In this document: one piece after another, positions 7,135 to 44,280 of the stretch | Layout of the letters: each line of letters begins with the position of its first letter | How positions within the stretch are numbered: position 1 is the first letter of the stretch | DNA from: Glutamicibacter sp. JC586 | GTDB lineage: Bacteria; Actinomycetota; Actinomycetes; Actinomycetales; Micrococcaceae | Direction of reading: 5' to 3' | Assembly (NCBI RefSeq): GCF_009805585.1 | Contig: NZ_VHIN01000002.1 | Location: forward strand, 248,001 to 312,000 | DNA length: 64,000 bases | Notes under the pieces: generated by a model | Database searches by the model: none | What the model was told of the DNA's origin: nothing | Seen by the model: the letters and a program-made list of their open reading frames with translations, nothing else | Translations under genes and position numbers: made by a program

Positions 7135-9813
7135 TTAGTGTGCAGCCTCGTGCCAAGTACGGCCGATGCCTGGCTGAACATCCAGCGGAACCAAAAGGTC
7201 AGCTGCCTGACCCATCTCTCGCGTCATCAACTCCTGAACAGCGTCCAGCTCGCCTGATGCCACTTCAACGATGAGTTCGTCATGCACTTGCAACAGCATC
7301 CGTGACTTGTACTGCCCTGCACGCAGGCCTTCGTCGATCTTCAGCATGGCCACCTTCACTAGGTCAGCTGCCGAACCCTGGATGGGGGCATTCAGCGCGG
7401 CGCGCTCAGCAATGTCGCGAAGACGTCGATCTGAGCTGTTCAGCTCCGGCAAATAGCGACGGCGACCAAAGATGGTTTCGGTGTATCCGTCCTTGCGGGC
7501 TTGGTCGACGACCGAGCGCAGATAGGTTCGCACGGCACCAAAGCGGTCGAAGTAGTCCTTCATGAGCTTGCGGGCTTCGTCCACGCCGATCTTCAGCTGC
7601 TTTGACAGGCCGAAGCTGCTCAGGCCGTAGGCTAGACCGTAGCTCATCGCCTTCACCTTGGAACGCATCTCGGAACTGACTTCGGATGGTTCAACGTTGA
7701 ACACGCGCGAACCAACGTACCGGTGCAGGTCTTCACCGTTTTGATAGGCCTCGATCAGTCCGGCATCTTCGGAAAGGTGCGCCATGATGCGCATTTCAAT
7801 CTGCGAGTAGTCGACGGTCAGCAGGCTTTCATAGCCCTCGCCCACCATGAAGACGTCGCGAATACGTCGACCTTCTTCCGAACGCACAGGGATATTCTGC
7901 AGGTTCGGGTTCAGGCTGGAAAGTCGTCCGGTGGCAGCAACGGTCTGCGCGTAGGTGGTGTGGATTCGTCCGTCACTGTGCGTGGCTTTGAGCAGTCCGT
8001 CGACGGTCTGACGCAGTTTGATCGCATCGCGGTACGCCATCAGTGCAACCAGGAAGGGGTGGCCGGTCTTGACCAGCAGGTCCTGTAATGATTCTGCATC
8101 GGTGGTGAAACCGGTCTTGATTTTCTTGGTCCGTGGCAGATCAAGTTCCTCAAAGAGCACCACCTGCAGTTGCTTGGGGCTCGATAGATTGACCTCATGG
8201 CCAATCGCGGCAAAGGCGTCGTTGGTGGCCTGATCCACCTGGCTGGTGAAGTGGCCGCGCAGTTCATTAAGTCGGGCGACGTCGACCGCGACACCGGCAC
8301 GTTCCATTTCGAAAAGCACTGGAATCAGCGGCAGCTCCATTTCAGCAGCCAGCTGATCGGCGTGTTTCTCCGCCAGTTTGGTGGCCAAGAATGCTGAAAG
8401 GTCGTGGATGGCTTGAGCCTGAGCAAGGGTTGGTTCGGCCAGATCTGAAGTCAGGCCCAGATCCAGTTCGCCCTTCTTCGCCTCGTGAACTGGCACCGCA
8501 TATTTCAGGTGGTATTGCACCACGTCCACCAGATCATGGCTGCGCCGATCCGGCTGGATCAGATAGGCGCTGATCAACGTGTCGTCTTTGATACCTGCGA
8601 TGCGCAGTCCACGTTCGATCAGCAGGTGCATTACCGCTTTGGCATCGTGGAAAAGCTTCGGCGCGTCTTGGTCCGCGAGGAACGCCGCCAACTCCTTGTC
8701 GGTGGCCTCATCCAGTTCGGCTAAATCAAGCCATACCGCCTGAGCGCCTCGGAACAGTGCAAGGCCCACCGCTTCATTGCCCACGACCGCAGGCTGGATG
8801 GCGATCGGCGCGGATTCACCGGCATCGATAAATTCGCGTAGTGCTTGCGCATTATCGGTCGCCACGCGAGTGAAGGCGGCCACCTCTGGGGCAACTTCTT
8901 CCTCTTGCGCGGCGAAGAGGTCAAAGAGGCGTTTGCGCAAGGTATTAAATTCCAGTGCGTCGAACAGGTTCTCGATCTCTTCGCGGTTGGGCGCGACAAG
9001 TTCCATCTGTTCTAGGCTGACCGGAAGTTCAAGATCGTGCTTGAGCTGGTTCAAGCGACGGTTACGTGTGACGTTATCAACGTGTTCGCGCAGGGATTCG
9101 CCAACCTTGCCCTTGATCGAGTCGATATTTGCCAGTACGCCGGCCAGATCTCCGTAGAGGTTGATCCATTTCGCGGCGGTCTTCGGGCCAACTCCCGGTA
9201 CGCCAGGAAGATTGTCCGCTGTTTCGCCGACCAAAGCAGCAAGGTCTGAATACCGTGATGGTGGCACAAAGTATTTTGCCTCCACCGCGGCCGCATCCAT
9301 CGGCGGAATATCGCTAATACCCTTTTTCGGGTACAAAACTAGGGTCTTGTCGGTGATCAGCTGGAAGGCGTCACGGTCTCCGGATACCACCAGCACGTCA
9401 AAGCCAGCGTCTTCGCCCATGGTTGCCAGGGTGGCTAGGATGTCGTCGGCCTCAAAGCTCTCCAGCGTAATAGCGGGGATGTTCATCGCCTTCATGACCT
9501 CTTGGATGAGGTCGATCTGCCCGTAGAACTCTTCAGGCGTCTTATTTCGACCGCCCTTGTACTCCGTGTACTCCAAGGAGCGGAAGGTCGGAGTGTCCAG
9601 GTCGAAGGCCACAGCTACGTGGGTAGGCTTCTGCTGACGGATCATCGTCAGCAACATCGACACGAACCCATGCACCGCGTTGGTGTGCTGTCCCGTACTC
9701 GTCGCGAAGTTCTCCGCTGGCAGCGCATAAAACGCGCGGAACGCCATCGAATGTCCGTCAATAATCAGCAGTCTCTTGTCCGACGCAGGTGTCGGCTTGG
9801 TAGTTTCGCTCAC
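7135..9813 (-). CDS. polA: DNA polymerase I
   Basis: Family A DNA polymerase for repair and Okazaki-fragment processing, 892 aa. Residues 1-300 form the 5'-nuclease (LLIIDGHSMAFRAFYALP, then GVPGVGPKTAAKW). Residues about 310-490 are a 3'-5' exonuclease fold in which the DxE and other acidic metal ligands cannot be seen, as in mycobacterial PolA, so proofreading is probably absent. The polymerase domain carries DYSQIEMRIMAHLSED, the RRYLPEL region and QVHDELIVEV. GTG 9813 was chosen because the family begins just before ETTKPTPASDKRLL and because TAGGCT lies 7 nt upstream. The ATG at 9834 would overlap the divergent thioesterase start and has no ribosome-binding site. Confidence 0.95.
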   Translation of the reverse strand: MSETTKPTPASDKRLLIIDGHSMAFRAFYALPAENFATSTGQHTNAVHGFVSMLLTMIRQQKPTHVAVAFDLDTPTFRSLEYTEYKGGRNKTPEEFYGQIDLIQEVMKAMNIPAITLESFEADDILATLATMGEDAGFDVLVVSGDRDAFQLITDKTLVLYPKKGISDIPPMDAAAVEAKYFVPPSRYSDLAALVGETADNLPGVPGVGPKTAAKWINLYGDLAGVLANIDSIKGKVGESLREHVDNVTRNRRLNQLKHDLELPVSLEQMELVAPNREEIENLFDALEFNTLRKRLFDLFAAQEEEVAPEVAAFTRVATDNAQALREFIDAGESAPIAIQPAVVGNEAVGLALFRGAQAVWLDLAELDEATDKELAAFLADQDAPKLFHDAKAVMHLLIERGLRIAGIKDDTLISAYLIQPDRRSHDLVDVVQYHLKYAVPVHEAKKGELDLGLTSDLAEPTLAQAQAIHDLSAFLATKLAEKHADQLAAEMELPLIPVLFEMERAGVAVDVARLNELRGHFTSQVDQATNDAFAAIGHEVNLSSPKQLQVVLFEELDLPRTKKIKTGFTTDAESLQDLLVKTGHPFLVALMAYRDAIKLRQTVDGLLKATHSDGRIHTTYAQTVAATGRLSSLNPNLQNIPVRSEEGRRIRDVFMVGEGYESLLTVDYSQIEMRIMAHLSEDAGLIEAYQNGEDLHRYVGSRVFNVEPSEVSSEMRSKVKAMSYGLAYGLSSFGLSKQLKIGVDEARKLMKDYFDRFGAVRTYLRSVVDQARKDGYTETIFGRRRYLPELNSSDRRLRDIAERAALNAPIQGSAADLVKVAMLKIDEGLRAGQYKSRMLLQVHDELIVEVASGELDAVQELMTREMGQAADLLVPLDVQPGIGRTWHEAAH

Positions 9814-9820
9814 ACCTGAA

Positions 9821-9826
9821 AGCCTA
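9821..9826 (-). promoter_or_regulatory. Leaderless-type -10 box of polA
   Basis: TAGGCT on the minus strand ends 7 nt before the GTG start, so transcription would begin at the start codon itself. There is no clear Shine-Dalgarno sequence. Confidence 0.5.
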
Positions 9827-9832
9827 GTTGCC

Positions 9833-10315
9833 ATGAACGACAATTTCACTACTGGACCCACGCAATCTTCGGCACACCCGTTCGAACGGCAGCTGACCGA
9901 ATGTGGCATTCCCGAATCTATGTGGCCCTTTTTGCGCACCAATGGTGTTGGTGAACTCACCGAGAAGCTGGGGATTGTCTTTACCGAATTCACTCGCGAT
10001 CAATTGAGCGCCACCATGCCTGTGGCGGGAAACACCCAGGTCTACGGGATCTTGCATGGTGGAGCCTCAGCGGCTTTAGCCGAAACACTTGGGTCCATGG
10101 CCGCCGCGCTACATGGGGCGCCAACCTCGCAACCTGTGGGAGTTGACTTGAATATCACCCACCACAAGGCAGGGCGAACGGGGATAGTGACAGCGGTGTG
10201 CACCCCAGTGCATTTGGGTCGCCGTAGCACCTGCCATGAGATCGTAATCAGTAATGAGGACGGTCAACGGGTAGCAACAGCGCGCATTACCAACATGCTG
10301 TTGCCCATCGAGTAA
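9833..10315 (+). CDS. PaaI-type hotdog-fold acyl-CoA thioesterase
   Basis: A 160-aa hotdog-fold thioesterase expected to hydrolyse an acyl-CoA or aryl-CoA ester; the exact substrate is unknown. The conserved segment GNTQVYGILHGGASAALAETLGS (residues about 70-92) contains the HGG turn and the following glutamate of the PaaI/YdiI group, and VGVDLNITHH follows. The ATG at 9833 lies 19 bases from the polA start on the other strand, so the two genes are divergent with almost no room for leaders. The equivalent gene next to polA is common in Actinobacteria, sometimes annotated as a PaaI family thioesterase. Confidence 0.85.
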   Translation: MNDNFTTGPTQSSAHPFERQLTECGIPESMWPFLRTNGVGELTEKLGIVFTEFTRDQLSATMPVAGNTQVYGILHGGASAALAETLGSMAAALHGAPTSQPVGVDLNITHHKAGRTGIVTAVCTPVHLGRRSTCHEIVISNEDGQRVATARITNMLLPIE

Positions 10316-43309: not shown

Positions 43310-43338
43310 TTGGACGGATGCGAATTCTCGTATAGAGT
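43310..43338 (+). promoter_or_regulatory. Predicted promoter of the tRNA operon
   Basis: TTGGAC (43310-43315) and TAGAGT (43333-43338) with a 17-base spacer. The predicted start is about 40 bases before the first tRNA-Gly. Confidence 0.65.
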
Positions 43339-43385
43339 TTTTACTCGTTGGAAAGAACGGAAACGTTCAGAAAACAGCACATTTT

Positions 43386-43461
43386 GCGGACATAGCTCAG
43401 CTGGTAGAGCGCAACCTTGCCAAGGTTGAGGTCGCGAGTTCGAACCTCGTTGACCGCTCCA
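43386..43461 (+). tRNA. tRNA-Gly (GCC), copy 1, with acceptor-stem A5:A68 mismatch
   Basis: Anticodon loop TTGCCAA gives GCC. The 5' acceptor strand is GCGGACA and the 3' strand TGACCGC, so position 5 (A) faces A68. All other stems are intact. Discriminator T and encoded CCA. Compare copy 3, which has the opposite mismatch. Confidence 0.92.
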
Positions 43462-43479
43462 TAACTTCATATAAATCCT

Positions 43480-43552
43480 GCGGTCATAGCTCAGCTGGTA
43501 GAGCGCAACCTTGCCAAGGTTGAGGTCGCGAGTTCGAACCTCGTTGACCGCT
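43480..43552 (+). tRNA. tRNA-Gly (GCC), copy 2
   Basis: Same body as copy 1, with GCGGTCA and TGACCGC fully paired. CCA is not encoded. It follows copy 1 after an 18-base spacer. Confidence 0.96.
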
Positions 43553-43604
43553 CTGTGAATTCAGAATTTTTTGGATTCTGTCGAGATTCATTCGTGAATC
43601 TTCG

Positions 43605-43676
43605 GCGCGATTGGCGCAGCGGTAGCGCGCTTCCCTGACACGGAAGAGGTCACTGGTTCGATCCCAGTATCGCGCA
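43605..43676 (+). tRNA. tRNA-Val (GAC), copy 1
   Basis: Acceptor GCGCGAT / ATCGCGC pairs perfectly; the anticodon loop CTGACAC gives GAC. Discriminator A, CCA not encoded. Confidence 0.96.
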
Positions 43677-43700
43677 CTGAACATCTTTATCGATGTTCAT

Positions 43701-43773
43701 GCGGTCATAGCTCAGCTGGTAGAGCGCAACCTTGCCAAGGTTGAGGTCGCGAGTTCGAACCTCGTTGTCCGCT
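43701..43773 (+). tRNA. tRNA-Gly (GCC), copy 3, with acceptor-stem T5:T68 mismatch
   Basis: The 5' strand is GCGGTCA and the 3' strand TGTCCGC, so T5 faces T68. The 3' strand would pair perfectly with the 5' strand of copy 1. The anticodon and other stems are identical to the other copies. CCA is not encoded. Confidence 0.92.
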
Positions 43774-43827
43774 CGCAAAAAGATTCACCGACTAGGTAAA
43801 ACTAGTTATTCTGACTTCGGTCAGTAT

Positions 43828-43898
43828 GGTGGGGTGGCCGAGAGGCGAGGCAGCGGCCTGCAAAGCCGTTTACGCGGGTTCGAATCCCGTCCCCACCT
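43828..43898 (+). tRNA. tRNA-Cys (GCA)
   Basis: Acceptor GGTGGGG / CCCCACC; the anticodon loop CTGCAAA gives GCA. Discriminator T, CCA not encoded. It is the only cysteine tRNA in the window. Confidence 0.96.
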
Positions 43899-43925
43899 CG
43901 CAATGAAGATTGCTTGATCTTTTTT

Positions 43926-43997
43926 GCGCGATTGGCGCAGCGGTAGCGCGCTTCCCTGACACGGAAGAGGTCACTGGTTCGATCCCAGTATCGCGCA
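43926..43997 (+). tRNA. tRNA-Val (GAC), copy 2
   Basis: Identical to Val copy 1 over its full length; acceptor fully paired, CCA not encoded. Confidence 0.96.
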
Positions 43998-44042
43998 CGG
44001 ACTCATGGTTCACCAGACCATGGATCTCAAAAATAAATATAT

Positions 44043-44118
44043 GCGGTCATAGCTCAGCTGGTAGAGCGCAACCTTGCCAAGGTTGAGGTCGCGAGTTCGA
44101 ACCTCGTTGACCGCTCCA
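44043..44118 (+). tRNA. tRNA-Gly (GCC), copy 4
   Basis: GCGGTCA / TGACCGC fully paired, discriminator T, encoded CCA. It is the last gene of the tRNA operon. Confidence 0.96.
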
Positions 44119-44125
44119 AATAAAG

Positions 44126-44156
44126 ATGGGAATCACTCCAAGTGGTTCCCATTTTT
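44126..44156 (+). terminator. tRNA operon terminator
   Basis: An 11-bp stem (ATGGGAATCAC / GTGGTTCCCAT, one G-T wobble) followed by TTTTTC, directly after the last tRNA-Gly. Confidence 0.88.
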
Positions 44157-44280
44157 CTTTAAGTTTTGTGACCTGACACGCCCGAGTTTTCCACCGCTCT
44201 TCCCTCATCAGTATTTTCGTCCTAGGGTGGAAAGCAGTTGTGGAGCTAAAGGGGTTCCCACAAACGAATGGAGGTGCAGC

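Follow-up and report, generated by a model that had tools for sequence, protein, structure and literature searches.

Two of the four tRNA-Gly(GCC) genes in a tandem tRNA array of Glutamicibacter sp. JC586 carry an unpaired position in the acceptor stem, and each holds the half that would complete the other, raising the question of whether the array was rearranged in the cell or in the assembly. The array, Gly-Gly-Val-Gly-Cys-Val-Gly, lies at positions 43386-44118 of the window, the 64,000-nucleotide stretch that was analysed, which covers bases 248001-312000 of a contig 704,470 bases long, part of a draft genome of 26 contigs and 3.52 Mb. All seven tRNA genes were placed on the + strand by ARAGORN. 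The stem letters given by a sequence-only reading of this DNA are correct: copy 1 has A5 opposite A68, copy 3 has T5 opposite T68, and copies 2 and 4 are paired. Copies 1 and 3 are, as that reading proposed, reciprocal halves of one A5/T68 gene and one T5/A68 gene. In the parts of the literature that were covered on this strain, on tRNA misassembly, on unequal crossing over or gene conversion in tRNA arrays and on tandem tRNA genes in Glutamicibacter, there was nothing on point.

In the comparison with relatives, the array was cut inside each Gly body, and the resulting segments (U, D1 to D3 and D4) were assigned by their spacers. D1 consists of spacer s1, D2 of s2a-Val-s2b, and D3 of s3a-Cys-s3b-Val-s3c. 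For short spacers and distant relatives the identities are weak (for example 50-65%), and assignment there follows gene order and neighbours. The features, in order, are as follows.

43326..43390, + strand: segment U, the 60-base upstream flank with bases 1-5 of the first Gly gene, ending in A5
43386..43458, + strand: tRNA-Gly(GCC) copy 1, GCGGACA/TGACCGC, A5 against A68 mismatch, junction of U and D1
43458..43479, + strand: s1, the D1 spacer including the discriminator base; last array spacer in the relatives that have s1
43480..43552, + strand: tRNA-Gly(GCC) copy 2, GCGGTCA/TGACCGC, paired, junction of D1 and D2
43552..43604, + strand: s2a, D2 spacer, 91% identity in G010
43605..43677, + strand: tRNA-Val(GAC) copy 1, in D2 (ARAGORN)
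43678..43700, + strand: s2b, D2 spacer, 87% identity in G010
43701..43773, + strand: tRNA-Gly(GCC) copy 3, GCGGTCA/TGTCCGC, T5 against T68 mismatch, junction of D2 and D3
43773..43827, + strand: s3a, D3 spacer, 89% identity in G010 and 96% in G011, where it lies 3' of the first Gly gene
43828..43899, + strand: tRNA-Cys(GCA), in D3; the second gene in 12 of 13 gapless arrays of relatives
43926..43998, + strand: tRNA-Val(GAC) copy 2, in D3 (ARAGORN and comparison with relatives)
43999..44042, + strand: s3c, D3 spacer, 83% identity in G010 and 91% in G011
44043..44115, + strand: tRNA-Gly(GCC) copy 4, GCGGTCA/TGACCGC, paired, junction of D3 and D4
44115..44174, + strand: segment D4, the downstream flank, in the same place in relatives, 93% identity in G010

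Copies 1 and 3 share exactly 62 identical bases, gene positions 6-67 (43391-43452 in copy 1), and copies 2 and 4 are identical over 75 bases. Of the 59 tRNA genes surveyed in this genome, none but copies 1 and 3 has a mismatched inner acceptor pair (2-71 to 6-67). Mismatches at an end pair of the stem occur in four other genes, namely three tRNA-Met genes with C against C at 1-72, which we take to be of the initiator type, and one tRNA-Pro(TGG) at 7-66. The survey was carried out by script, except for two Thr genes and one Met gene that were read by eye; the stems of these three pair, the Met gene having G:T at 1-72. The tRNA-Pro(TGG) gene lies on contig C11 of the same genome (859-934 of locus L129, - strand) and, by a simple check of its stem, has A7 facing C66.

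The array was compared with that of 17 other genomes of the genus, 13 of which have it without gaps. Eight of these 13 (G002, G003, G004, G010, G013, G014, G016 and G017) have the order U-D3-D2-D1-D4, as opposed to U-D1-D2-D3-D4 in the window, and D3 is the leading module in 12 of the 13. Fewer modules are present in G001 and G005 (MYb229), which are without D1, and in G008, which has D3 alone; D3 comes first in all three. In G011 (Arthrobacter sp. MYb214) the usual order is found with D1 four times. The remaining genome, G006, has the order D2-D3-D1. For the 60-base flank in U, identity is 87-98% in 12 of the gapless arrays but 62% in G008. By flank identity among the 17 congeners, the nearest relatives are G010 (Arthrobacter sp. 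S41, 80.5%) and then G002, G014 and G016 (77.3-77.9%), all four with the usual order; G008 stands at 69.6%, and G006 is lowest (68.3%). The final Gly-Gly spacer in G010 matches s1 with 100% identity.

The Gly-Cys-Val-Gly-Val-Gly(-Gly) array of Glutamicibacter and its relatives (G010, G002 and G016) has, in the congeners, the same genes as the window, with recognisable spacers and flanks, and in the close relatives one A5/T68 gene occurs together with T5/A68 genes. It differs in that the window has D1, D2 and D3 in reversed order and two unpaired stems. In every one of the 13 gapless arrays the first Gly gene is A5/T68 and all Gly stems are paired. The later Gly genes are T5/A68 in nine of the 13; the A5/T68 type is also found in the second Gly gene of G001 and G005 and in every Gly gene of G006 and G008. 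The more distant arrays L040 and L042 have a single stem type throughout. The fully paired GCGGACA/TGTCCGC gene that the sequence-only reading expected at this site in relatives does indeed open the array in 16 of the 17 congeners, the exception being G009, which has N at that place.

Two of these arrays have features of their own. In G011, five consecutive tRNA-Gly(GCC) genes with four near-identical 23-base spacers span 9403-9854 of locus L076; either the last module has multiplied in tandem, or this is an assembly effect at the repeat. In G006, the array (about 9257-9959 of the reverse complement of locus L070) has four stems that are all A5/T68 and two identical Val-Gly spacers. Since G006 shares the D2-D3 adjacency with the window, common ancestry of the two orders was considered; it is not favoured, because G006 has the lowest flank identity of the 17 congeners and the other 12 gapless arrays start with D3.

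The mismatches of the window are a by-product of the segment order, because U ends in A5 and D3 starts with T68. Any of the four orders, out of six possible, in which D3 does not lead gives one A5/A68 gene and one T5/T68 gene. As judged from the segment comparison, all four Gly junctions of the window differ from those of the usual order, and the two mismatches are junction products, whether of real recombination or of a misjoin in the assembly. The swap of halves described earlier is thus accurate for the two bases but is part of something larger, a change in the order of the whole array that had been missed, and a single crossover, as first suggested, is insufficient to produce four altered junctions. 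The bases alone would be accounted for if two genes had changed independently at positions 68 and 5, by point change or by short tracts of gene conversion. Point change cannot relocate the spacers and neighbouring genes, which moved with the halves, and this explanation was rejected as having next to no probability.

It is equally improbable that copies 1 and 3 form a functional pair with altered charging or processing. Their predicted RNA folds are weaker (-24.0 kcal/mol for copy 1 and -25.4 kcal/mol for copy 3, compared with -29.4 kcal/mol for the paired copies, differences of 5.4 and 4.0), as such a role might entail, and both genes, at 64.6 and 65.1 bits, clear the 29-bit cut-off for tRNA in Rfam. 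Yet the mismatches are not conserved. They are absent from the 13 gapless congener arrays, and a scan of 395 family genomes for this body sequence left 393 or 394 without them. With the present genome counted, A5/A68 occurs in two of the 395 (this genome and G009) and T5/T68 in one (this genome), using patterns that demand this Gly body and therefore miss any genus whose body differs.

Repeats longer than the word of an assembler can cause misjoins in short-read assemblies, and in a word-graph assembler the length shared by contig ends marks k. Within this assembly, eight pairs of contig ends have exactly 46 bases in common; six of these are two ends that enter the same 46 bases, and two are overlapping ends, one of them a self-overlap. 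Seven other exact overlaps, of 32, 36, 36, 40, 40, 40 and 41 bases, were found, such that 46 is the commonest length but not the sole one, in a comparison where eight of the 26 contigs read only as N and are uninformative. The 46-base mark suggests an assembler word of about 47 bases, which is shorter than the 62-base identical body; between copies, identical stretches extend over 62-75 bases. At each k tested from 55 to 63, k-mer content does not distinguish the six segment orders. Orders with D3 first separate from the others at k=64, and the observed order becomes unique at k=71. At k=47 the Val genes are also repeats and their junctions are ambiguous too, giving 12 paths that include the observed one; the mismatch pair is present in eight of the 12 and absent in four.

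In combination, these findings suggest that the mismatched Gly genes are very probably the product of an assembler misjoin of the repeated array. The true array would probably be Gly(A5/T68)-Cys-Val-Gly-Val-Gly-Gly, as in the nearest relatives, with every stem paired, and the permuted order would then be absent from the cell. With four Gly bodies identical over at least 62 bases and words of about 47, all segment orders would be equal in the graph, and the assembler would have taken the wrong exit from the first Gly body, so that the A5 half ended up with an A68 half, and the T68 half with one carrying T5. The locus resembles a short-read misjoin at a repeat longer than the word in that its breakpoints fall in the identical body, orientation is kept, no base is gained or lost, and the probable word of about 47 is below the 62-base repeat. 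The breakpoints lie in exact repeats above the probable word length, the observed path is one among equals, and the relatives have another order. Assembly error, which the sequence-only reading had named as its main alternative, is therefore better supported than recombination, given the short word relative to the body and a similar chimera beside an N run in G009.

Several observations weigh against a misjoin. In the same assembly, a Met array of three copies, whose exact repeat is 97 bases long, runs collinear with G010 over positions 2-682 of a 741-base query, which indicates that a longer repeat was resolved there, either by the assembler or in a later step that used reads or pairs. Misordering at another repeat of this assembly was thus not seen in the one array tested, the three-copy Met array, where the spacers are wider than those of the Gly array. 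The Val junctions inside D2 and D3 of the window also match those of relatives, and the order in G006 suggests that segment orders may change in nature.

Tandem gene arrays can undergo excision and Campbell re-integration by homologous recombination, and such a process would result in the same sequence here; the sequence in itself fits an artefact and a real event alike. In a real rearrangement, recombination between Gly bodies would have excised D2-D1 as a small tRNA circle, and a second, Campbell-like crossover would have inserted this circle into the first Gly gene. The array of this strain would then be shuffled, with an inner acceptor pair broken in each of two Gly genes, which would persist since two paired copies are still present. 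The geometry would be exact, as the U-D3 junction crossed with the D2-D1 junction of the circle gives the observed order. The Campbell-type event proposed earlier therefore fits in its geometry, but would need prior excision of the circle. Recombination is made plausible by the variation of copy number and order within the genus, with five Gly genes in G011 and D2-D3-D1 in G006, and by the one other long tRNA repeat of this assembly being resolved in the order of relatives. Against it, the 13 gapless congener arrays contain no mismatched Gly stem, the only similar chimera, in G009, sits 93 bases from an N run, and the probable assembler word is too short to separate the orders. There is no independent sign of recombination at this locus, nor is it needed to account for the array, and shuffling in the strain is considered unlikely, though clearly more credible than point change or a functional pair.

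A misjoin is also favoured by the 17 other congeners, in which 57 of 58 complete Gly genes are paired. The exception is the A5/A68 gene of G009, located at 10023-10094 of the reverse complement of locus L074, where a run of 241 N (9689-9929) ends 93 bases before it. The Val-Gly spacer upstream of this gene is nearly that which precedes an A5/T68 gene in G001, and its 3' half and flank (D4) are those of the last gene of the array. This chimera is likely a misjoin of the same kind that arose in a different public assembly, although it could also be a real deletion. Four of the 17 congeners have a broken array as well: in G007 and G015 contigs end within it, and in G009 and G012 (NIO-1057) it is interrupted by N runs; the N runs could be masking by the data holders as opposed to assembly gaps.

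If the mismatches are an artefact, tandem tRNA genes whose acceptor stems are reciprocally mismatched can serve as a flag for misordered short-read assemblies, and the word length of the assembler may be readable from contig ends. If the rearrangement is instead real, the locus would offer an unusual view of array shuffling with unpaired genes left in place, caught at a stage when neither selection nor gene conversion has yet restored the stems.
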